Source of the DNA: Hyphobacterium sp. CCMP332
Lineage (GTDB): Bacteria; Bacteroidota; Bacteroidia; Cytophagales; CCMP332
Reading direction: 5' to 3'
Length of the DNA stretch: 64,000 bases
NCBI GenBank assembly: GCA_014323545.1
Contig: CP058647.1
Span: 1,342,001 to 1,406,000, forward strand
Shown piece by piece: positions 21,037-31,957 of this stretch (position 1 is its first letter; each line of letters starts with the position of its first letter). A program made the translations under genes and the position numbers. The notes under the pieces were generated by a model. It saw only the letters and a program-made list of their open reading frames with translations, did no database searches and had not been told where the DNA came from.

Positions 21037-21852
21037 CTATTCCAATTTAAAGAATACAGGCACTGTCATTCTCACTTTTACGGGCCTGCCTCTCTGTTTT
21101 CCCGGATTCCATTTTGGTGCGCTTAAAACAACTCTTAAGGCCTCTTCGTCACAACCACCCCCTATTCCTTTGACTACTTTGGCATTAGTAAGAGAACCGT
21201 CTTTATCGACCACAAATTCTACAAAAACACGACCGCTAATACCGATTCTTCTGGCTTCATCAGGATAGCGGATATTTTCACTTAGATACTCGTAAAAGCT
21301 GCTTATACCACCAACAGGTTGAGGTTGATCCTGAACTACTAAAAATATTTGTTCTACATCTTCTTCTTCCGGTTCTTCAACTTCAGGAAAATGCTTAGTT
21401 ACTTCTTCAATCTTGGTTTCATTGGTAATTTCGACATCAAGATTTATTTCGATTTCCTGTTCAATAACCTCCTCATCCGGTACGGCAACTATTTCAGGTT
21501 GTTGCAATTGTGGTTTAGGAGGTGGAGGCTGAGTGGTTTGAGGGATTTCATATACTTCTTCAAAGTCATCTTCTACTTTTCCCAGAGAAATGATTTGTTT
21601 TTCATCATAGCTCTTCCACTCGATAATTACATTGACTAATACCAAAGTGAGAACAAAACCAATCCCCAGAAGCAAGGCATAATAACGATCCAATTTGGCT
21701 ATTGAGATCTTTTTTACCTTGAAATCCAAATGATCAAGACGGCCATGACTCAATGCAAATGAAGTACTGTTATCAATTGCAAACTTTAAAATAAGTATTA
21801 CAAATAGAATTACTGCGAAAAAGGCTCCTATAACTAATAATATCTGTAACAT
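21037..21852 (-). CDS. TonB-like energy transducer, copy 1 of 3
   Basis: 271 residues. It has two hydrophobic segments (about 3-25 and 58-80) where classical TonB has one. The second ends with the Bacteroidota hallmark IIEWKSYDEK. A Pro-rich and Glu-rich periplasmic linker (PQTTQPPPPKPQLQQPE) leads to the TonB C-terminal domain from about 190, with IRYPDEARRIGISGRVFVEF and GCDEEALRV. TonB transmits proton-motive force from ExbBD to outer-membrane receptors. No exbB or exbD is nearby. Confidence 0.9.
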   Translation of the reverse strand: MLQILLVIGAFFAVILFVILILKFAIDNSTSFALSHGRLDHLDFKVKKISIAKLDRYYALLLGIGFVLTLVLVNVIIEWKSYDEKQIISLGKVEDDFEEVYEIPQTTQPPPPKPQLQQPEIVAVPDEEVIEQEIEINLDVEITNETKIEEVTKHFPEVEEPEEEDVEQIFLVVQDQPQPVGGISSFYEYLSENIRYPDEARRIGISGRVFVEFVVDKDGSLTNAKVVKGIGGGCDEEALRVVLSAPKWNPGKQRGRPVKVRMTVPVFFKLE

Positions 21853-22008
21853 AAAATATTGCTTTAGATAAATGTAATTTTGTTTTTACAGCTCTAACAT
21901 GATTATTTTTTATTTATGTCTATGATTTTAATCAGTTATATAATATTTAAAATTTAATATTGAATCTAGTTATTTTTTAGTCGCAATACTTAGACAAATG
22001 GTCTTTTT

Positions 22009-22806
22009 TCAATGAAACTTTAATACAATCGGAACAATAATTTTCATTCGGATCGGTCTTCCCTGATTCATTCCATATTCCCAATCAGGAGCGATGCTAA
22101 TTACTCTTAATGCCTCTTCATCGCATTCTTTGCAAAGGCCTTTCATCACTTGAGCTTCGGATAAGGAGCCATCTTCATTGACCGTAAACTGAACTACTAT
22201 TCTTCCTTCTATGCCATTTCTTTTTGCCGTTTCCGGAAATTGATAATTCTTTGCAATAAACCTAAGAAAATTTTTCATCCCCCCCTTTGGCCCTGGATTT
22301 CTGTCAACTTTTTCGTAGGAATCAAAGACTTTTACAGTTTCTTCAGGTGCTTCGTCAAATTTTATAATTTCTGTCGGTGCTTCGTCCAGGTCATTTAACC
22401 AGTCTATTTCAATGAGTTCATCTTCCTCTATTATTTCCTTGACTTCCACAATTTTTGGTTTAACAATTTTTGGTTTTGGAGGAAGAGGAATTTCAGTAAT
22501 TGGAATATCTGTGAATTCTTCAAATAATTTTGACTCCTTTTCAAATTCAATAATTGTCTTTGAGTCATAATCCTTCCATTCAAAAGCTGTGATAACTAAT
22601 AAGAGGGCGATTACAAAAGCTGCTGATTTTATTGCCTGTCGATATTTGACTAAATCCACTGATGGATTTTTTTTTAGGTAATAAACCGATCTCCCAGCTC
22701 TATTAATTTTAGGATAGGATTTTTTTTGGTGATGGATAAAAATTTTAAATAGAAAGGTCGTAGTTATTAACAGCAACAATAAAGCTACTGTGATGAATAC
22801 GATCAT
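22009..22806 (-). CDS. TonB-like energy transducer, copy 2 of 3 (divergent)
   Basis: 265 residues. Same build as its neighbours: two hydrophobic segments (about 2-24 and 56-77), AFEWKDYDSKT, a linker, and a TonB C-terminal domain with YQFPETAKRNGIEGRIVVQF. The linker is quite different, with a duplicated DEAPTEI/DEAPEET unit and fewer prolines. The C-terminal domain is also the most diverged of the three and has CKECDEEALRV. This suggests a different receptor partner. About 156 bases separate it from copy 1. Confidence 0.88.
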   Translation of the reverse strand: MIVFITVALLLLLITTTFLFKIFIHHQKKSYPKINRAGRSVYYLKKNPSVDLVKYRQAIKSAAFVIALLLVITAFEWKDYDSKTIIEFEKESKLFEEFTDIPITEIPLPPKPKIVKPKIVEVKEIIEEDELIEIDWLNDLDEAPTEIIKFDEAPEETVKVFDSYEKVDRNPGPKGGMKNFLRFIAKNYQFPETAKRNGIEGRIVVQFTVNEDGSLSEAQVMKGLCKECDEEALRVISIAPDWEYGMNQGRPIRMKIIVPIVLKFH

Positions 22807-22896
22807 TGTTTTGGCGTTTTATTATCATTAAAATACGTATGTGTATATATAAAACGATTAAAGCCAACAAATCGTGTATTATCTGAAAATCATAAA

Positions 22897-22923
22897 AAAA
22901 GCCAATCTGCAGATTGGCTTTTA
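22897..22923 (-). terminator. Intrinsic terminator after tonB copy 3
   Basis: A perfect palindrome AGCCAATCTGCAGATTGGCT at 22900-22919 extends to longer A/T-paired arms and is followed on the reverse strand by a T7 run. It lies about 18 bases past the copy 3 stop and separates copies 3 and 2 into different transcripts. Confidence 0.85.
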
Positions 22924-22940
22924 TTTAGTATGATTAAGTT

Positions 22941-23738
22941 TTAACTCAGTTTAAAAAACACAGGTACGGTCATTTTTACTTTGACCGGTCTACCCCTTTG
23001 ACGGCCCGGAGTCCAGTTAGGCGATGATTTTACTATCCTTACAGCTTCCTCATCACATCCGGCACCAATGCCTTTTACTACTTTTACATTGGTCAACGCA
23101 CCGTCTTTATCCACTACAAACTCCACAAATACTCTGCCTTCCACACCCATTCTTCTGGCTTGCTCCGGATAACGTATATTTTTACCAAGATATTCATAGA
23201 AGGCACCCATACCGCCTTTAGGCTCGGGTTGGTCTTCTACAATTAGAAATACCTGCTCTACTTGTTCTTCCTCAGGCTCATCTTCAACCACAACTTCCTC
23301 AATTACGGTTTCTTCCGTGACCTCAACATCGAGATTTACTTCTATTTCTTCTTCAATTTCTTCTTCATCAGGCACTTCGATGATTTCAGGTTGTTGAACT
23401 TTTGGCGGTGGTGGAGGTGGTTGCTGAGTTGGTGGAATTTCGATTACATCTTCAAAATTATCTTCAACCGAGCCCAAATCTATGGTTGATTTTTCATCGT
23501 AATCCTTCCACTCAAAGGCGGTTATTACAATTCCCAAACTTATAACCAATCCTATATTGGCCAGAAGCCCTGAATATTTATGAATATTCGAAACTTCGTA
23601 TTTCTTTTCTAAATGATGAGAATCTGCATGTTTGCCTTCTTCCATATATTTTGACGTTCGTTTATCAATAATAAATCTGAAAAGAAAGATCAAAAATACA
23701 AGAAGGAATAAGAGACCTCCTACAATTACCAGTGCCAT
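22941..23738 (-). CDS. TonB-like energy transducer, copy 3 of 3
   Basis: 265 residues, closest in sequence to copy 1. Hydrophobic segments lie at about 3-25 and 59-79, followed by AFEWKDYDEKSTIDLG. The linker is very acidic (VPDEEEIEEEIEVNLDVEVT) after PPTQQPPPPPPKVQQPE. The C-terminal domain has IRYPEQARRMGVEGRVFVEF and GAGCDEEAVRIV. It follows vanZ in the sprA-gcvH-vanZ direction with a 55-base gap and ends in its own terminator. Confidence 0.9.
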   Translation of the reverse strand: MALVIVGGLLFLLVFLIFLFRFIIDKRTSKYMEEGKHADSHHLEKKYEVSNIHKYSGLLANIGLVISLGIVITAFEWKDYDEKSTIDLGSVEDNFEDVIEIPPTQQPPPPPPKVQQPEIIEVPDEEEIEEEIEVNLDVEVTEETVIEEVVVEDEPEEEQVEQVFLIVEDQPEPKGGMGAFYEYLGKNIRYPEQARRMGVEGRVFVEFVVDKDGALTNVKVVKGIGAGCDEEAVRIVKSSPNWTPGRQRGRPVKVKMTVPVFFKLS

Positions 23739-23793: not shown

Positions 23794-24174
23794 TTATATA
23801 AGCCTTGTTTTATATATCATAAAAAACATAAATCTACCAAAAATCACGCCAAGTCCATTTGCCACTGCGTCCCATATTTCAAAATTGCGATCAGGGATAT
23901 ATTGCTGAATAAATTCCAATAAAGCACCATAGCTGATTAAACTGAAAATCGTTAAATAATAAATATTAAAATGATAGCAGCCATCGGAGTATTGCTTGTT
24001 AAATCCAACGATCATTAATAATGAAAGTAAGGCAAAGGCAAAAAAATGAACGAGTTTATCAAATCCCAATAAATTGAAAAATTCCAAATTAGGCAGACTG
24101 CCCCCTGGGATTAATATAATTGAGCTTACAATTATGGCCCAAACAATTGTAAATATGTGATATTTAATGGTCAA
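23794..24174 (-). CDS. VanZ-like family membrane protein
   Basis: 126 residues with four hydrophobic segments. The family pattern is visible: IPGGSLPNLEFFNL, FDKLVHFFAFALLSLLM near 39 and the acidic GALLEFIQQYIPDRNFEIWD with DAVANGLGVIFG near 84. VanZ-like proteins are small inner-membrane proteins of unclear role. The start appears to be TTG at 24174, one base after the gcvH stop. Position after gcvH is typical next to sprA. Confidence 0.85.
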   Translation of the reverse strand: MTIKYHIFTIVWAIIVSSIILIPGGSLPNLEFFNLLGFDKLVHFFAFALLSLLMIVGFNKQYSDGCYHFNIYYLTIFSLISYGALLEFIQQYIPDRNFEIWDAVANGLGVIFGRFMFFMIYKTRLI

Positions 24175-24175
24175 T

Positions 24176-24553
24176 TTATTCTATTGATCCTTCGTAAGAA
24201 GCCGCATCTAAAAGTGAATCCAGTTCGGAAGGATTCGACATCTCAATTTTAATCATCCAGCCCGCTCCATATGGGTCATCATTAACTTTTTCCGGCGAAG
24301 ACTCAAGGTCTTCATTCAATGCGATTACCTTTCCGCTTACCGGCATGAACAAGTCAGCGACCGTTTTAACCGCTTCAACAGATCCAAAAACATCTTTTTG
24401 ATTTAAATCTTCATCTAATTCGGTTATATCAACATAAACGACATCACCAAGTTCCTGCTGGGCGTAGTCTGTAACACCAATTGTTGCGACATTGCCTTCT
24501 ACACGAACCCATTCGTGATCATCTGTATATTTTAAGTCTTTTGGGATATTCAT
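24176..24553 (-). CDS. gcvH: Glycine cleavage system H protein
   Basis: 125 residues. It carries lipoyl-bound aminomethyl groups between P, T and L proteins. The lipoylated Lys is in FGSVEAVKTVADLFMPVSG near 63. The N-terminus MNIPKDLKYTDDHEWVRVEG is standard. gcvP, gcvT and lpd are not in the window. It starts 60 bases after the end of the sprA region, in the usual ruvA-sprA-gcvH order. Confidence 0.97.
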   Translation of the reverse strand: MNIPKDLKYTDDHEWVRVEGNVATIGVTDYAQQELGDVVYVDITELDEDLNQKDVFGSVEAVKTVADLFMPVSGKVIALNEDLESSPEKVNDDPYGAGWMIKIEMSNPSELDSLLDAASYEGSIE

Positions 24554-24613: not shown

Positions 24614-26704
24614 TTATCCTGATAAGCTAAATCGCAATTGAATTCCAAATGCAGTACTTGTGGATTTAAAGGAGGTTGAAATTTTTGGATTATTGACATT
24701 TCTTTCAAAATAAGCCTGTAGGGATAGTCGCTGGTTTAGCATGTATTCAATGGTAGGTCTCAATTGAAACACAAAATTTCCTGCTGTTATTAAGCCGTTT
24801 TGATCAATTAATCTTTGCGTGGTTTCCGAGTCCCTGAAGGTCACCTGAGTTCGCATGGTCAAATCATTTTTTAAGGTCACCGTTCTTCCCTGCACCCTAA
24901 ATGGCAGTTTCATACCTGCTTTGGTATAGCCAAGGCTAACTACATAGTCGTTATTATTAATTTCCGTGACCGACCTGTTGTTAACATTTAAAGAAACATT
25001 TCGGCTTACACGGTACTCAAAGCTGGCATTGATCTTACTTTTTGTTCTGACGTTAACCCCAAAGAGAGGCGAAAATGACTCATTGATAGTAACGGTGGGA
25101 ATTATAAAAACAGGCACATAGGTGAAGCCGATAGAGTCTTTTTCTGTCTTTATCGTCGGATATGGCGGTTGTAATTCATAGGTAAATAAATCTATGCTCG
25201 ATTCGATATACTCCCCTGAAGAATTGTAATTGCTTACTGCATATGTGGATGAATAGGCATGATTTAAATTTATTGAACTGAATTTCTTTTTCAGCCATTT
25301 TACTTTACCCAAACCGGCATAATCCACTCTCCAATTCGGCAATGGAATTGTGGGAAATTGCTCAATACTTGAACTTCCGGCATCTCTTCCCGTGTATGCC
25401 ATGAAAAATGAAGAAATGAGAACTTCCTGATTATTTAAATCGTATCCAGACCCATTTGGATTTTCCTGATCCAGTCGAGCTCTTACGATAGCTCTGTTGT
25501 TTTCAAATTGTTGAAACACTTCGGTTACGTCTTTTCTGCCAGTAGCATTTGGACTAAATGCCGTTTTAATTGATATGGTTGAAATGGTGTAATTTCCATT
25601 TATTTGAGGCTGGAACCCTCTTTCTTCAGGAAACCCCGCTGCTCTGACTATGTTTCCCAAACTGTCAAATTCAGCTATGGAATATCTGAACTGTTCTGAA
25701 TAATTATCGGATTTTGACCTTTTTGCATCCAATTGAATTCTAAAATCCCGAATGGGTTCAAGAGAGGTTCTGAGTTGAATGGTTTCTGTTCTGCCCTGTG
25801 AAAATTGTGAGAAAAAGTTTTGATCTCGCGTAAGCCAACCATTTTGAGCTGCCCTGATTCTGATATCCGGGTTTTGATCACCCATTATAAATTTCCAACC
25901 AGGGGCGCTGGTGGTTGCGTAATTCAGCCCTGGATCATAGTATCTCCGATCAACCCCTACAATATCAACTTCAGGCATATAACCAGGTAAAAAGGTATTT
26001 CTGGTCAATGTATAAGTTCCATTAATGCTTTTGAGCGACATCAATACACGCAAGCCCGCTTTTAATCCTTTTAAGTCTTTTTTCTCTTTTTCTGTGCTAT
26101 CCTGTTTGGCATTGTTATTTCTTCGGGCCGGGGTCCTTCTCAAAGTCCTTCTCCTGGGTTGATTAACCTCCTTTAAAAATTTTGATTTATTGTAGAGCTT
26201 CAACATGTCAATTCTTCCATTTACAGCTGTCGTTTGTCTGTTGGAAATACTATTTCCGAGTCGGACAACCTGTCTTGATGCCGCGTTCCAGTCGTAGCCG
26301 GCCGTATAACTGACATCCGCATTCATCCAGTCGATTAATGGGATTTTGCTGAGTGGCACTTTATAGTTTGCTACAACCGTTTGTGTGTAATTGGTCATTC
26401 TTCCCAATTCGCCGATTTTTTGAAATAGCTCATCCCTGTATTCGCCTTTGTTTGGTTCACCTTCGGGTTCATCTATGATGGCTCTGACATTAACATTATA
26501 ATTTAGGCTTAAACTCTTTGTAATATTCCAACGAACGGCATAAGTCCTGTTAAATGTGAAAAGCTTTTGATAAAAAGTCTCCATGCCAATTGTATTCAGT
26601 TCATTATTTAGGTTTTGTGTTTTGGTGAAATCTCTGTTTAAATCACCTCTAACTGTATATGAATTGGGGAAGGGCGATAAATTGAAGTCCTTTATTAATT
26701 TCAA
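24614..26704 (-). CDS. sprA: SprA T9SS translocon, C-terminal part after an in-frame stop
   Basis: 696 residues if started at TTG 26704, which begins LKLIKDFNLSPFPNSYTVRG. This continues exactly where the upstream SprA frame stops: both are in the same frame, separated only by TAA at 26726-26728 and seven codons (KFLDKAY). The part contains the last beta-strands of the barrel, including FEYRVSRNVSLNVNNRS and the terminal TAFGIQLRFSLSG. On its own it has no signal peptide and could not reach the outer membrane. I treat it as the 3' portion of one gene, not a separate gene. Confidence 0.85.
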   Translation of the reverse strand: MKLIKDFNLSPFPNSYTVRGDLNRDFTKTQNLNNELNTIGMETFYQKLFTFNRTYAVRWNITKSLSLNYNVNVRAIIDEPEGEPNKGEYRDELFQKIGELGRMTNYTQTVVANYKVPLSKIPLIDWMNADVSYTAGYDWNAASRQVVRLGNSISNRQTTAVNGRIDMLKLYNKSKFLKEVNQPRRRTLRRTPARRNNNAKQDSTEKEKKDLKGLKAGLRVLMSLKSINGTYTLTRNTFLPGYMPEVDIVGVDRRYYDPGLNYATTSAPGWKFIMGDQNPDIRIRAAQNGWLTRDQNFFSQFSQGRTETIQLRTSLEPIRDFRIQLDAKRSKSDNYSEQFRYSIAEFDSLGNIVRAAGFPEERGFQPQINGNYTISTISIKTAFSPNATGRKDVTEVFQQFENNRAIVRARLDQENPNGSGYDLNNQEVLISSFFMAYTGRDAGSSSIEQFPTIPLPNWRVDYAGLGKVKWLKKKFSSINLNHAYSSTYAVSNYNSSGEYIESSIDLFTYELQPPYPTIKTEKDSIGFTYVPVFIIPTVTINESFSPLFGVNVRTKSKINASFEYRVSRNVSLNVNNRSVTEINNNDYVVSLGYTKAGMKLPFRVQGRTVTLKNDLTMRTQVTFRDSETTQRLIDQNGLITAGNFVFQLRPTIEYMLNQRLSLQAYFERNVNNPKISTSFKSTSTAFGIQLRFSLSG

Positions 26705-26725
26705 ATAGGCCTTATCAAGGAATTT

Positions 26726-29700
26726 TTATCTTTTGAAAGGTTCAATGCTTATATTTTTGGCCGAGTAGTTATAGCCAATGCCAAATGTGTGGTTGGTTCG
26801 TTTAAAAACAGCAATGGTGGGGCTGTTCCGTAAATTTTCTGTGTAACCTGCGGAAAGATTTAAATTCTCAATATCGTAAATCCTTGATTTGGCATTTGGA
26901 TTGGTTTTTATCTTTTGAAGGTTGGATACTCTGAAACTTCTGATCGTGTTATTGGTCGTCACTTTATCCTCATATTCCTTGGCCACCTCTGCTCCGGATT
27001 CCGCTTCTATCGCATCGAGTTTGTTTTCAAGGCGCACATCGGGGTCGAGTGGGTCAAATTTTGGTGTTACTCTTGACCTTTCATAACGAACAAAAAACGG
27101 CACCTTCAATCCAACTGACTCCGGGATGAATTTATCAACATTAATATTGGATTGAATGTCGTATTGCTCTTGTGTTGATCGCGAACGATCCGAAATTTTA
27201 TCGCCTATTGCTCCAAACCCTTCGGTGACATATTTACCGGAAGTGGTCACGGTAGCAAAATCAGCCAGTTTGGAATTGACTCTCGCCGTTGCTGCCCAAC
27301 CTGCGTTTTTGTCAAATTCAGCCACGCGAAGTTCATTAAACCACAAACAAACTGATTTTTGTTCATTAAGCTGCTCACTATCAAGGTATAAATTTCTAAC
27401 CCCTAGCATGACAGTTAGAACATTGCTTAAATCTGGATTTCCTTTCACCGAAATGGTGTATTTACCATTTTGATATTCGTAATAATTTACATCGCTATCA
27501 GGATTTGGGCTCAAGCCGTTTCTCTCTCTTCTCAGGGCTTTTGCTTTGGTAAGATCATCGAAAAGTATGTCAAATTCATTGCTTTCAGGCCAGATTTCTT
27601 CCGCTCCTCCGGCACCAGGATCGGTGATGTCTAAAGGAATTGAAACTTCATAATAATTGTCTTCGAAATCCGTTCCGATACGGATAAACGCTGCCATCTC
27701 TCCATCTTCCGCGCTTTGATCCGGAGAGTGCGCATGTACATACATTCTCAATCGTTTATAATTTAGGAAATCGAAGGTAACATTTTTGAAGACGGCTCTG
27801 GCCCGGTCGTTTCGCAGATCGTCCACACAGATTTGAAGCGATTGCTCATTGAGTTGTCTTGAAACTTGTGAGGTATTATCAAAATCACGAATTACGCCCG
27901 GTGGTAGCACATATGGTGAATTGTTCGCATCTCCCTGACCGTTTTCTTCAATATTTACGGTTGAGATGAAAAGGTTGCTTCTTTGATCATTTACAGGTTC
28001 TAAACCGGTATTTCTTGCTGCAAACTCATCTTCATAGCGTCTCCACTGACTCGATACCAATTGAAGATTTACAAACCTCAAAACAACAGGTTCCTCCCAG
28101 CCTGTTAAAAACATTCTCATCCATTTTATTGAATTAAAAGTCAGCCCTGAGCCGCCCTCCTGAGAAGCCAGGCTATTTTCCAACTCCCGAATTGGAATTC
28201 TGAATTGATACCAGCTGACATCCTCTCCATTGACATTGGCCACCACTCTGTCGGTAATGTACCCATTTCCTACTTGCATTTGCGCAGGTTTGAGGTCTAT
28301 CTTGTATTGAAAATATCTATTGAGCGGATCAACATTAAAATTTTGATTTAAATCTTCATCATCGGGGAGAGGACTATTCGATGGTGTAAAAAGATTGCTG
28401 TTGTTTTGAGCTGGGGAATTGCCCTGATTTCCATTGAATTTTTTATATCTCTCAATTACTGAAGGCTCTGAAACCGGGTAATCTCCTTGCAAGTAATAAA
28501 CGAAATCATCATTTGAGGGATCATCCAAAAGTCTTTGAGCTGCATCGGGATTTGCAATTTGCGATACCGCAGTGATATAAGGTTGATATGGACCAAAATT
28601 TCTTTCGCCTTCATTATTTAAACCATCCAAACCGATATCCTGCTGATTTCTGGCGTCCGGATCATTGTCAAATGCTCTGGTTACATTTGAAATGGTCGGT
28701 ACCTGAGCCCAATCTGTCGCTTCTGTAGCACCGACAGGAGGTAAACCGTTTTCAAAGGAATATTTTCCGTCTTTTAAAACGTCTTCTGAGATATCTCCAA
28801 GGTTAAAAAAGAGAGTTCCTCCCGTTGTATTATTGCTTCCTTCTGTCCCATTGGGACCTGTGGCCACTCTTCCATTATCCCCATCGAGGAATGGGTCCAT
28901 CAACCAAAATTCGATGTATTCAATATTTGCTGCATCAAAATTATTATTGAATGTAATTGGCCTCGTTATCCCCGCCCACTTGCTTTTAGCTACTTCGGGT
29001 CTGAATTTTCCGGTATTGAGGTCAATTTCAGAAAGATTGGGGTTGTAATTATAGGGCCCTCTTTCGGTCGGAAAAAAAGCTAGGTCAAAAGTAAATTCAT
29101 TAAAATTAACTGCCTGTCCTTGTCGGTTCGGAAACACCTCGTTGAAGCCAACGGCTCTTACATAGTGGTTTGCCAGCTGTTCCTGAGTAATGTGATCGGG
29201 CTTTCCCCTCCCCTGTTGACGGTAAAAAACATTATCAATGGTATACCATGCCAGTCTTGCACGATTATATCCGAATTCCAGACCATTCAATGAACTTTCG
29301 GGAAAAAGGAGCGGTGTGGATGCCAGTTTCCATGAATTAGGCACCCTGGTAAAATCGTAAGGTATTTCAGCTCCCTCGAAATCGTCGATATAAGAATTTC
29401 CTCCCGAACCCAATCTTCTATGCGATCCGGGGATAAGGTAAGCTGCTTCGGCATTTACGGTTACTGAAGATTTTTCTTTTGTAGAAATCAACGGAATAGC
29501 ATCTACGGCTTTGGTCAATAATCTGGATTCCTTCGACATACTCATGTCCATTCCCACCATTACATTTTTTGTGGGTTCATCGCCTATGTTTACCCTTGTA
29601 ATGATAGGCCGCTCATTTAGCATCATGAATGTACCCCCCAGGTTTACATCGCGATTTAATTTATAATCGAGTCTTGCCCCAAAGAGTGATCTTTGTTGAA

Positions 29701-31957
29701 AATTAAAGAGATCGGCTTTCTCGTATTGTATTCTAATTTCACTACCAGAGTTCAGTACGCCCTCATCGGTGATCAATACGCTTCCAAGATTGTAATTCAC
29801 TGTAAATTGCTGGCCTTCCGTAAGCTCAGAACTCCCTGCAAATACCTTCACCGAGCCTCTGGCAATATTGAATCCCGGTAGATTGATTTCTGATCCTGCC
29901 GAACCCTGATAAGATCCTTTAATCCTGAATTTATTTTTATCAGCTTGCAGACGCGCGATAGCTCTGGCGCCAGTATATAAAGTATCAAATGCATACTTAT
30001 TGGCCAATAAGCCTTGTTCCTGATCAAATACCTCTTCTCTTAAATAGGACCCAAAGGGTTCCAGTTTTGTAAAGAAGATTTTCCCTCTTCTTACATCGAT
30101 AGTAACAGGTTCATAAATCAGATTGGTTGAATTATCGACAAAATCAAAATTTCCATCTGCACCCGGATCATTATTGGGATTTAATTTATCGACTTCAAGC
30201 AATTGAACCAATGGAACATCTTTAATTCCGGGCCCACCTTCATGCAAAGAGGGATTATCAACACCTGAAGCATCATCCCTGTATATCACGCGCATTTCAA
30301 AGTTTTGCTGGGAAATCTGATTGGCACCTAATGAATAGACGTTTTTCATCATCAGATCCCATGTGGGATTATCCAAAAGAGGGCTCGAACTAGGCCTAAG
30401 CAATTTTAGATATATATTTTGGCGGTCTCCAAGGTTACTGTAATCCTCCTGCAATTCCCCAACCTTGTAATTTCTTCCGTTGACAGAATATTCAAAGGCC
30501 ACCGCTACAACCACATCCTGCTGGAAAGATTGGTGAATGGTTATATATCCAAGTTTTGGATGAAAACTGTATTCTGAATCCGTAAGTTTTCTTACTCTAT
30601 CAATGGTTTCAAAATCCTGCCCCGGCAATAATCCGTAAACCTCAAGATTCGCTACTGTTCCATCATTTCTAATGGCCTGATCGGAACGCATGGTTTGATA
30701 TAAATTATTATTCTCATTATCAACCGGTGCATTAGGGTTTACTGTAAAGCCAAATTGTGCATTATCCTGGATTCTGGTAATTTCAGGACGAGCTTCACCC
30801 AAATCGGTAAAAGCGATCATGTTTCTTTGTGACTGGGTTTCCTGGTTTCTGTTGGTTACATAAACTTCAACCCTATTAATAATTACCCCGGAATTTATAA
30901 TTGGATAATTTTCAAGCCAGGTTTCATAATTATCGCGGAAATAATGGGATAAAAAGAAATGTCGGTCTTCATCGTAATCTGAAACCGGAATATCAAATTC
31001 TGTATTTTGAACACCTCCGGAACTGATGGTAATGGATTCCGTTCTACCCCTCTGGTTCGACACAACTGCTTCAACATTTAGCTTGCCGAATTTTAGTTTT
31101 GTTTTAACACCCATTAGGTTTTGTGAACCCTGAATCAAGGCACTCGGTGGGTTAAAGGAAATGTTTCCCGCTTCAATATCCTGAATGATATCTTCTTCAA
31201 AACCCTGATAATCTACTTTTACCTGATTCTCAAATTCAAATGATGCTTTGGTATCCCAATTGGCTGTGATTTTAAGTTTTTCTCCTACATTTCCTACCAG
31301 GTTCATACTGATTTGTTGATCGAAATTAAATCCTCCATTTCGTTGTTGTCGAATTGGAATTGCCGGATTATCTACTCTTTGCCATCTGGCTCCGAAATCG
31401 AGGGTTACAAATCCATTTGGCCGTATATCCACATAATTCCCTCCAAAAATTCTGTCAAAAGCCGGGGATAAATATATTTTGGGGATCAGGCTTCTGTCAT
31501 TTCCAAGTGGATTATCATCGCCCTTGCTGCCTGTTTTTTCCATGAAATACTGGCGATCCATCTCTGCTTTTCGCATTTCATAAAATCGATCATAAGACAT
31601 GGTCGTTGGGGGTCTGTAGAGATCGTCACCAACTTTTTCGGTTATGGTAAAATTTTTAAGGCTATCATCGATTTGTACATCCGTATCGATATTAGATGGA
31701 AGTCCTAAATACAAGGAAGACCGCGAAAGGCGGTCGGTCATTGAATTTCCATAATAATCTTGTGTACCAAAATTTGGTCGCCGGCTGGGCTCATAGGGTT
31801 TTATTGAGTCCGTATCCAATGAATCAGGAGGAACCATTGCGCCCACCAATGAAGATAATTCCAGAAATTCGCCAATAGCGATTCCTGCAAAGCCTTCTCC
31901 TATTGCGCATAAGAGAAGAATGAATATTCCACATATGAAGCGTAATTTAAAACTCAA
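26726..31957 (-). CDS. sprA: SprA T9SS outer-membrane translocon, N-terminal part
   Basis: 1743 residues up to an in-frame TAA. SprA is the giant 36-strand barrel that passes T9SS cargo across the outer membrane. It starts at TTG 31957 with signal LRFICGIFILLLCAIGEGFA. Typical SprA segments are IPKIYLSPAFDRIFGGNYVD near 155, the GFVTLDFGARWQRVDNP region and VNAEAAYLIPGSHRRLG near 840. With the 3' part the frame spans about 2447 codons, matching the family (about 2400). Order ruvA-sprA-gcvH is conserved. No other damage is seen, so the stop is isolated. Confidence 0.93.
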   Translation of the reverse strand: MSFKLRFICGIFILLLCAIGEGFAGIAIGEFLELSSLVGAMVPPDSLDTDSIKPYEPSRRPNFGTQDYYGNSMTDRLSRSSLYLGLPSNIDTDVQIDDSLKNFTITEKVGDDLYRPPTTMSYDRFYEMRKAEMDRQYFMEKTGSKGDDNPLGNDRSLIPKIYLSPAFDRIFGGNYVDIRPNGFVTLDFGARWQRVDNPAIPIRQQRNGGFNFDQQISMNLVGNVGEKLKITANWDTKASFEFENQVKVDYQGFEEDIIQDIEAGNISFNPPSALIQGSQNLMGVKTKLKFGKLNVEAVVSNQRGRTESITISSGGVQNTEFDIPVSDYDEDRHFFLSHYFRDNYETWLENYPIINSGVIINRVEVYVTNRNQETQSQRNMIAFTDLGEARPEITRIQDNAQFGFTVNPNAPVDNENNNLYQTMRSDQAIRNDGTVANLEVYGLLPGQDFETIDRVRKLTDSEYSFHPKLGYITIHQSFQQDVVVAVAFEYSVNGRNYKVGELQEDYSNLGDRQNIYLKLLRPSSSPLLDNPTWDLMMKNVYSLGANQISQQNFEMRVIYRDDASGVDNPSLHEGGPGIKDVPLVQLLEVDKLNPNNDPGADGNFDFVDNSTNLIYEPVTIDVRRGKIFFTKLEPFGSYLREEVFDQEQGLLANKYAFDTLYTGARAIARLQADKNKFRIKGSYQGSAGSEINLPGFNIARGSVKVFAGSSELTEGQQFTVNYNLGSVLITDEGVLNSGSEIRIQYEKADLFNFQQRSLFGARLDYKLNRDVNLGGTFMMLNERPIITRVNIGDEPTKNVMVGMDMSMSKESRLLTKAVDAIPLISTKEKSSVTVNAEAAYLIPGSHRRLGSGGNSYIDDFEGAEIPYDFTRVPNSWKLASTPLLFPESSLNGLEFGYNRARLAWYTIDNVFYRQQGRGKPDHITQEQLANHYVRAVGFNEVFPNRQGQAVNFNEFTFDLAFFPTERGPYNYNPNLSEIDLNTGKFRPEVAKSKWAGITRPITFNNNFDAANIEYIEFWLMDPFLDGDNGRVATGPNGTEGSNNTTGGTLFFNLGDISEDVLKDGKYSFENGLPPVGATEATDWAQVPTISNVTRAFDNDPDARNQQDIGLDGLNNEGERNFGPYQPYITAVSQIANPDAAQRLLDDPSNDDFVYYLQGDYPVSEPSVIERYKKFNGNQGNSPAQNNSNLFTPSNSPLPDDEDLNQNFNVDPLNRYFQYKIDLKPAQMQVGNGYITDRVVANVNGEDVSWYQFRIPIRELENSLASQEGGSGLTFNSIKWMRMFLTGWEEPVVLRFVNLQLVSSQWRRYEDEFAARNTGLEPVNDQRSNLFISTVNIEENGQGDANNSPYVLPPGVIRDFDNTSQVSRQLNEQSLQICVDDLRNDRARAVFKNVTFDFLNYKRLRMYVHAHSPDQSAEDGEMAAFIRIGTDFEDNYYEVSIPLDITDPGAGGAEEIWPESNEFDILFDDLTKAKALRRERNGLSPNPDSDVNYYEYQNGKYTISVKGNPDLSNVLTVMLGVRNLYLDSEQLNEQKSVCLWFNELRVAEFDKNAGWAATARVNSKLADFATVTTSGKYVTEGFGAIGDKISDRSRSTQEQYDIQSNINVDKFIPESVGLKVPFFVRYERSRVTPKFDPLDPDVRLENKLDAIEAESGAEVAKEYEDKVTTNNTIRSFRVSNLQKIKTNPNAKSRIYDIENLNLSAGYTENLRNSPTIAVFKRTNHTFGIGYNYSAKNISIEPFKR

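Follow-up and report, generated by a model that had tools for sequence, protein, structure and literature searches.

Three neighbouring tonB genes in Hyphobacterium sp. CCMP332, each with an added N-terminal membrane helix, as probable housekeeping TonBs

TonB carries the energy of the inner membrane to the nutrient importers of the outer membrane, and the models of its action (pulling, rotation, or shuttling off the inner membrane) take it to be anchored by one helix. What is, then, a TonB with two helices? The question is raised by a stretch of 64,000 nucleotides from Hyphobacterium sp. CCMP332 (Bacteroidota, Cytophagales; contig CP058647.1, positions 1,342,001 to 1,406,000; hereafter the window), which holds three neighbouring, intact tonB-like open reading frames (ORFs) on the minus strand, here called a, b and c (Table 1). 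They are probably ordinary housekeeping TonBs to which a membrane anchor has been added. Under this reading, there is a natural set of bacteria whose housekeeping TonB has two predicted helices and, if a two-helix TonB works normally, TonB need neither leave the membrane nor spin freely.

The three proteins match the Pfam domain TonB_C, all well over the curated cut-off, and TonB_C is their only Pfam match at E 0.01, no M56 or other domain being found in their N-terminal parts. The AlphaFold2 model of copy a has the fold of the TonB C-terminal domain (CTD), with a Foldseek match to the TonB chain of 6i97 (E 1.4e-5). In the models of a and b, the CTD has mostly a predicted local distance difference test score (pLDDT) above 90, and the linker a low one. 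Copies a and c are 78% identical in the CTD and 66% in the linker; b and a, 43% and 37%, although b is still a TonB_C protein. This agrees with the initial annotation, made from the sequence alone, in which the first and third copies were described as alike and the second as having a different linker and CTD. Copy b may serve a different set of receptors. Full-length orthologues of copy a, 75 and 74% identical, occur in both other genomes of the window's family (f1), and copy c has orthologues in L038 (11409-12212) and L078 (9944-10747); a third tonB copy, corresponding to b, was not found at this locus in those two genomes.

The helix calls rest on Kyte-Doolittle hydropathy, charge and AlphaFold2 (models of a and b). 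By hydropathy, each protein has two hydrophobic segments, here TM1 and TM2 (residues 4-22 and 59-77 in c; 2-20 and 57-75 in both b and a), which precede an EWK-S/D-YD motif in a, b and c. AlphaFold2 builds them as separate helices, at residues 2-33 and 52-77 of copy a and 2-28 and 56-77 of copy b, with blocks of pLDDT 79-86 over residues 1-30 of a and 89-91 over residues 1-20 of b. The earlier description of three tandem tonB genes, each encoding two hydrophobic segments ahead of the WK-S/D-YD motif, is thus borne out by the intact ORFs, the TonB_C matches, hydropathy and alignment in every copy, and by AlphaFold2 in a and b. Furthermore, helix and Pro/Glu-rich linker are contiguous in all three copies.

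Among 32 two-helix proteins, the loop between the helices has a median length of 36 residues and a mean net charge of +2.9, and the N-terminal tail a charge of about 0. Because the loop is net positive and the tail nearly uncharged, the predicted topology is as follows: N-terminus outside, TM1 running inward, loop in the cytoplasm, TM2 running outward and C-terminus in the periplasm. A signal peptide was considered and rejected on the charge pattern, since the N-tail is nearly uncharged and the positive charges come after TM1.

In other Cytophagales, the same neighbourhood holds a one-helix TonB with the KK motif, helix, linker and TonB_C, up to 69% identical to the two-helix form from about residue 45. 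This protein begins at the KK motif, lacking TM1 and the stretch after it; the two-helix form has about 43 residues, made up of the helix and some 20 others, ahead of the start of the alignment. The KK motif is retained directly before TM2 in the two-helix form (alignment A1), K46 is invariant across the 26 rows of alignment A2, and 105 of 120 one-helix proteins have an M..KK start within 12 residues. The residue profile of TM2 matches between 32 two-helix and 69 one-helix rows, the commonest letters having frequencies, in two-helix and one-helix rows respectively, of 0.91 and 0.86 (G), 0.78 and 0.78 (L), 0.72 and 0.83 (A), 0.81 and 0.87 (F), and 0.81 and 0.70 (E). These alignments indicate that TM2, and not TM1, is the counterpart of the single helix of the related TonBs.

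Classical TonB of the E. coli type has its N-terminus inside. It shares with a, b and c the TonB_C fold, a proline-rich linker and a membrane helix joined to it; but while it has one helix, a, b and c have two, and their charges predict an N-terminus outside. Some TonB_C proteins, on the other hand, have a BlaR/M56-like N-terminal domain; several helices precede TonB_C in them, as here, but the M56 domain is missing from a, b and c according to Pfam. In a study of TolA/TonB evolution, TonB is described as having a single N-terminal helix that binds the motor and an SHLS motif (PMC12204202). In no TM2 column does histidine rank among the top three residues, and the same is true of the one-helix relatives; serine or threonine is common. 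Consequently, a, b and c fall outside a classical single-anchor definition (one helix, cytoplasmic N-terminus, SHLS) and inside a broad one based on TonB_C and on helix and linker.

The tonB array ends the block sprA-gcvH-vanZ-tonB, with vanZ, gcvH and sprA upstream. In a survey of 79 loci by blastp with the window's proteins, 69 had at least 3 kb upstream of the best TonB, and there GcvH was found in at least 32, VanZ in at least 21 and SprA in at least 30, all lower bounds because contigs end and VanZ is poorly conserved. The GcvH-linked loci have a one-helix TonB in 30 out of 32 cases, and the two-helix form in L078 and L126. Family f26, which lies outside the order, also has the block, in two genomes (L165, with no VanZ match, and L175). 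In three small genomes, 89-93% complete (G009, G014 and G027), the one-helix homologue is the only TonB_C match. The TonB of the sprA block is, on such genomic grounds, taken as the housekeeping TonB of Cytophagales.

The genome of Hyphobacterium sp. CCMP332 is a single 3.33-Mb contig (C1), with the window at C1:1342-1406 kb. It has seven TonB_C matches, of which three are a, b and c; the other four lie in three proteins, namely two neighbours at C1:1953-1954 kb that share three matches and a 127-amino-acid (aa) protein at C1:3129 kb that has one. Judged by eye, these three proteins have secreted-type starts and are without a TonB-type linker; no TonB_C match with helix plus linker was found by Pfam in the genome outside a, b and c. 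There are 20 Plug-domain matches. The two ExbB and three ExbD matches lie at C1:847 kb and C1:2841-2843 kb, far from the window, as the initial annotation had anticipated when it saw no exbBD nearby. At C1:2841-2843 kb, the order is exbB, small membrane protein, exbD, exbD, and no tonB is present among the ORFs read there. Such a separation of tonB from exbBD is usual; for 19 relatives, the contig that carries the best TonB match has no ExbD match closer than 39 kb to it, a count that contig breaks limit. Because a, b and c are the sole TonB_C proteins with helix and linker, and because motor genes and 20 Plug matches are present, they would be the evident partners of the exbB-exbD-exbD motor, and would energise TonB-dependent receptors.

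A genome of family f16, G017, provides a direct genetic link between a two-helix TonB and the ordinary motor: the TonB gene (L066, 8308-9120) lies on the same strand downstream of exbB, small protein, exbD and exbD, with one gene in between. Nothing found points to the non-classical energy-transducer role that had been suggested for the array.

The arrangement that we propose is the following. The three genes would be paralogues of the housekeeping TonB of Cytophagales, in its usual place downstream of sprA-gcvH-vanZ. Each would keep the parts of the one-helix protein: (i) a cytoplasmic segment with the KK motif; (ii) a motor-facing TM2; (iii) a Pro/Glu-rich periplasmic linker; and (iv) a receptor-contacting TonB_C. 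One helix and about 20 residues would have been added in front, leaving the two helices connected by a loop of about 36 residues. TM2 would engage the ExbB-ExbD motor encoded elsewhere, and TM1 would act as an accessory anchor, selected mainly for its hydrophobicity, which tethers TonB in the inner membrane under force.

The hydrophobicity of TM1 is retained in most of the pairs tested. When compared with randomly mutated codons, it was reached by 49, 11, 3 and 12 of 2000 simulations in four out of six pairs. In the copy-a orthologues of the family, the synonymous sites of TM1 are near saturation (0.70-0.80) and the nonsynonymous sites are not (0.15-0.42). Nonsynonymous change is greater in TM1 than in TM2 in 9 of 13 pairs, a comparison in which synonymous sites are often saturated and the pairs are not independent. 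As a separate observation, the TonBs of L058 (8444-9259) and L061 (9436-10257) have a near-identical loop (proportion of nonsynonymous differences, pN, 0.012) and a strongly altered TM1 (pN 0.44), as if TM1 alone had been replaced.

The two-helix form, which the initial annotation had proposed to seek in other Cytophagales, is present in several families. Of 390 genomes of the order that were scanned, 144 gave a match at 1e-50 or better; here, query coverage stands in for TM1, and the calls concern matched genomes. Among the matches listed, at least 44 stop-free frames (counted by hand) align from query residue 13 or earlier, and two-helix rows occur in every matched genome of three families: f1 (3/3), f4 (11/11) and f18 (18/18), the last of which groups with Flammeovirga in the tree. 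Other families have no stop-free row from residue 13 or earlier among these matches, which extend to 9e-75; the rows of the nine matched f2 genomes fall below that value, outside them. Another 11 rows listed reach residue 18 or earlier only by crossing stops, and G545, an f4 genome, has a one-helix copy in addition. Direct reading of the proteins showed the two-helix form in f1, f2, f4, f16 and f18, as well as in Flexithrix, Flammeovirga, one Flexibacter metagenome-assembled genome (MAG) and the MAG of L126. In a phylum-wide sample, 39 of 395 genomes matched at 1e-40 or better, the window's own included, and among the matches listed no stop-free row reaching TM1 was found outside that genome. 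A title-level literature search, with subscription papers mostly outside its reach, surfaced no work on two-helix TonBs.

Several observations weigh against TM1 being a plain anchor on housekeeping TonBs: (i) a tyrosine stands in the loop before TM2 in 81% of two-helix and 10% of one-helix proteins; (ii) an LF[KR]-like end of TM1 recurs in the alignment; (iii) the module of TM1 and loop of copy a is recognisable across families, scoring 31.9 bits with a hidden Markov model (HMM) of the Flammeovirga/Flexithrix and f4 types, the largest of 500 shuffles reaching 18.5; (iv) in two of the six pairs, TM1 hydrophobicity is not clearly over random (158 and 403 of 2000 simulations); (v) in the close pair L044/L045, the ratio of nonsynonymous to synonymous rates (dN/dS) of TM1 is 1.47, on very few changes; (vi) the TonB of G017 stands very far from the other rows, and no relationship of its TM1 module can be recognised (1.7 and 2.4 bits); (vii) a TolA-like one-helix protein (L193, 682-1518) adjoins the exbB/exbD pair at C1:847 kb; and (viii) a TonB-like protein too diverged for Pfam could exist in the genome. 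TM1 may not be purely generic: points (ii) and (iii) would fit a specific partner, of which the LF[KR] end and the tyrosine are the best hints.

These same features (tyrosine, LF[KR] end and cross-family module score) speak for the alternative that TM1 makes a specific new contact with the motor, be it with ExbB or with the small membrane protein whose gene separates exbB from exbD, and so alters the coupling or release of TonB. We consider it a possible but doubtful explanation. In a small set of 10 two-helix and 11 one-helix genomes, the exbB operons have the same order (exbB, small protein, exbD, exbD) and similar ExbB proteins, and no ExbB column separates the two groups at 80%, in a comparison of ExbB columns alone and not of ExbD. 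This argues against a changed motor; a co-change of the motor, sought in ExbB and in operon order, was not found. The greater change of TM1 than of TM2 in 9 of the 13 pairs, and the weak scores of b and c with the HMM named above (2 and 6 of 500 shuffles as high), also speak against such a contact. Of the suggestion that an extra helix implies an altered contact with ExbBD, the helix itself therefore stands, but the altered contact is not reflected in ExbB, and the counterpart of the usual motor-binding helix is helix 2. The small membrane protein is present in 21 of 21 operons (L192 and L195-L214), with three or four hydrophobic segments in 20 of them and eight in L203, and it is a possible partner of TM1. 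In the operon of G017 (L066, 5030-10003), exbD is followed by a 186-aa protein, the two-helix TonB and then another TonB-like protein, which has no clear hydrophobic helix. The helix of the TolA-like protein of L193 contains a Ser...His stretch, SLGIH, unlike a, b and c.

A second alternative, which seems to us quite unlikely, holds that recombination has, on more than one occasion, joined a mobile module of helix and loop to housekeeping tonB genes of Cytophagales, TM1 docking on a fixed partner in the ExbB complex and limiting the rotation or release of TonB, with copy b as a capture inside the array. Copy b has the KKNP motif of one-helix type, and its TM1 is nearer to that of a than the TM1 of c is. 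Trees of the shared part were built from 202 TonB-like ORFs in the fetched loci; after removal of those below 95 bits (17), cut by contig ends, outside 200-340 aa or duplicated, 176 were kept, and three f16 rows added by hand, eight removed and 62 near-identical one-helix rows removed gave 109. Helix states were curated by hand after an automatic call. In these trees, two-helix rows fall in several groups: the two-helix state needs seven changes, four forced by starred branches, in the quick tree of 109 rows, and four, two of them forced, in a careful tree of 78 rows (31 long or divergent rows dropped, 12 two-helix and 19 one-helix) whose bootstrap had not settled. A single two-helix clade was borderline rejected (p-AU 0.046), for a group named after the tree was seen. 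Set against the trees, the module score of copy a suggests that its module is related across groups which the gene body keeps apart. The module of L126 scores 26.5 with the model of the window's family (largest shuffle 17.4) and 14.4 with the Flammeovirga/Flexithrix and f4 HMM (10 of 500 shuffles as high). With one HMM, 6 of 17 modules outscored every shuffle, and with the other, 12 of 26 did so; the remaining ones, which between 2 and 459 of 500 shuffles equalled or exceeded, are weak or negative and include b, c, the f16 rows and the paralogues L040, L041 and L061_11185. Ancient presence with losses, exchange of modules and tree error are all possible.

That the TonB linked to sprA is dedicated to energising the type IX translocon, and not general receptors, is very improbable. 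The upstream presence of SprA in 30 and GcvH in 32 of the 69 loci, and in the f26 genomes, would favour it. The GldLM/PorLM motor is also a proton-driven envelope machine of the same organism, and sprA stands next to the tonB array; GldM, however, belongs to a family different from TonB, and its match is encoded elsewhere in the genome. Type IX secretion uses this GldLM motor of its own (PMC8986121). The genome has 109 matches to the type IX secretion CTD, two of them under the curated cut-off. Its only SprA match carries an in-frame stop, flanked on each side by matching frame, whereas all three tonB genes are intact; the relative L039 has an unbroken sprA frame, and the stop could be a sequencing error, a strain-level null or a read-through site. 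In addition, the homologue is the sole TonB_C protein of G009, G014 and G027. The one tie of a, b and c to type IX secretion is synteny with sprA, and a title-level literature search on sprA with TonB surfaced nothing.

Finally, it is barely credible that TM1 is a mis-called leader and that translation begins after it, giving ordinary one-helix TonBs: candidate in-frame starts exist (an ATG at codon 32 of copy a, TTG codons in the loop of c and one GTG in that of b), but internal starts vary between relatives and none is shared, 5 of the 23 two-helix genes listed being without any over the stretch examined. In 100 of 104 one-helix genes, the frame is interrupted by a stop no more than 36 codons upstream; therefore, the two forms differ at the DNA level. 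Since TM1 mostly keeps its hydrophobicity despite fast sequence change, and internal starts are not conserved, a late start codon was rejected, and a true start after the first helix in all three copies, which the initial annotation had named as fatal to its view, is unsupported.

Table 1. Coordinates of the tonB array and of its upstream neighbours (positions in the window).
Feature	Position	Strand	Evidence
tonB copy a, 265 aa, orthologue of the sprA-locus TonB	22941..23738	-	TonB_C 4e-23
Copy a, extra helix TM1, about residues 2-23	23670..23735	-	Kyte-Doolittle 3.18; AlphaFold2 helix 2-33
Copy a, predicted cytoplasmic loop, residues 24-56, internal KK (K45-K46)	23571..23669	-	Alignment A2; loop charge
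Copy a, TM2, residues 57-77, counterpart of the single helix of one-helix TonBs	23508..23570	-	Alignment A1; residue profile
Copy a, TonB CTD, residues 187-265	22944..23180	-	Pfam; Foldseek
Terminator-like hairpin between a and b, T-tract on minus strand	22897..22922	-	
tonB copy b, 265 aa, divergent; internal KKNP motif of one-helix type	22009..22806	-	TonB_C 9e-16; AlphaFold2
Copy b, extra helix TM1	22741..22803	-	Kyte-Doolittle 2.74; AlphaFold2 pLDDT 89-91, residues 1-20
Copy b, TM2	22576..22638	-	Kyte-Doolittle; AlphaFold2
Copy b, TonB CTD	22024..22248	-	Pfam
tonB copy c, 271 aa, close to a	21037..21852	-	TonB_C 5e-22; orthologues
Copy c, extra helix TM1	21781..21843	-	Kyte-Doolittle 3.46
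Copy c, TM2	21622..21678	-	Kyte-Doolittle 2.77
Copy c, TonB CTD	21043..21276	-	Pfam
VanZ-like gene	23794..24174	-	PF04892
gcvH	24176..24553	-	PF01597
sprA (type IX secretion translocon), in-frame TAA at 26726-26728	24614..31957	-	TIGR04189; ORF ends

Separate terminators, and hence separate control, had also been proposed for the three genes. A terminator scan of both strands (three sites found, 2.7 expected by chance) returned the hairpin between a and b and called none between b and c, so that the proposal finds support for a against b and none for b against c. The Bacteroidota-type promoter pattern has one match in the window, fewer than expected by chance and not upstream of the tonB genes.

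Some minor observations concern other TonB proteins. In G007, the TonB of the locus is split by an in-frame TGA (L060, 6194-6853). A second TonB that follows the one-helix copy in L081, L087, L100, L106, L113, L127, L134 and L148 has an N-terminus of about 60-80 residues with no clear TM1, apparently a third N-terminal form. A contig labelled Thalassobius (Pseudomonadota), L109, carries a Flexithrix-like two-helix TonB and is probably mis-binned. The two adjacent TonB_C proteins at C1:1953-1954 kb (L071, 5060-6573), with secreted-type starts and without membrane anchor or linker, lie upstream of a Plug-matching gene, at a distance of about 2 kb.

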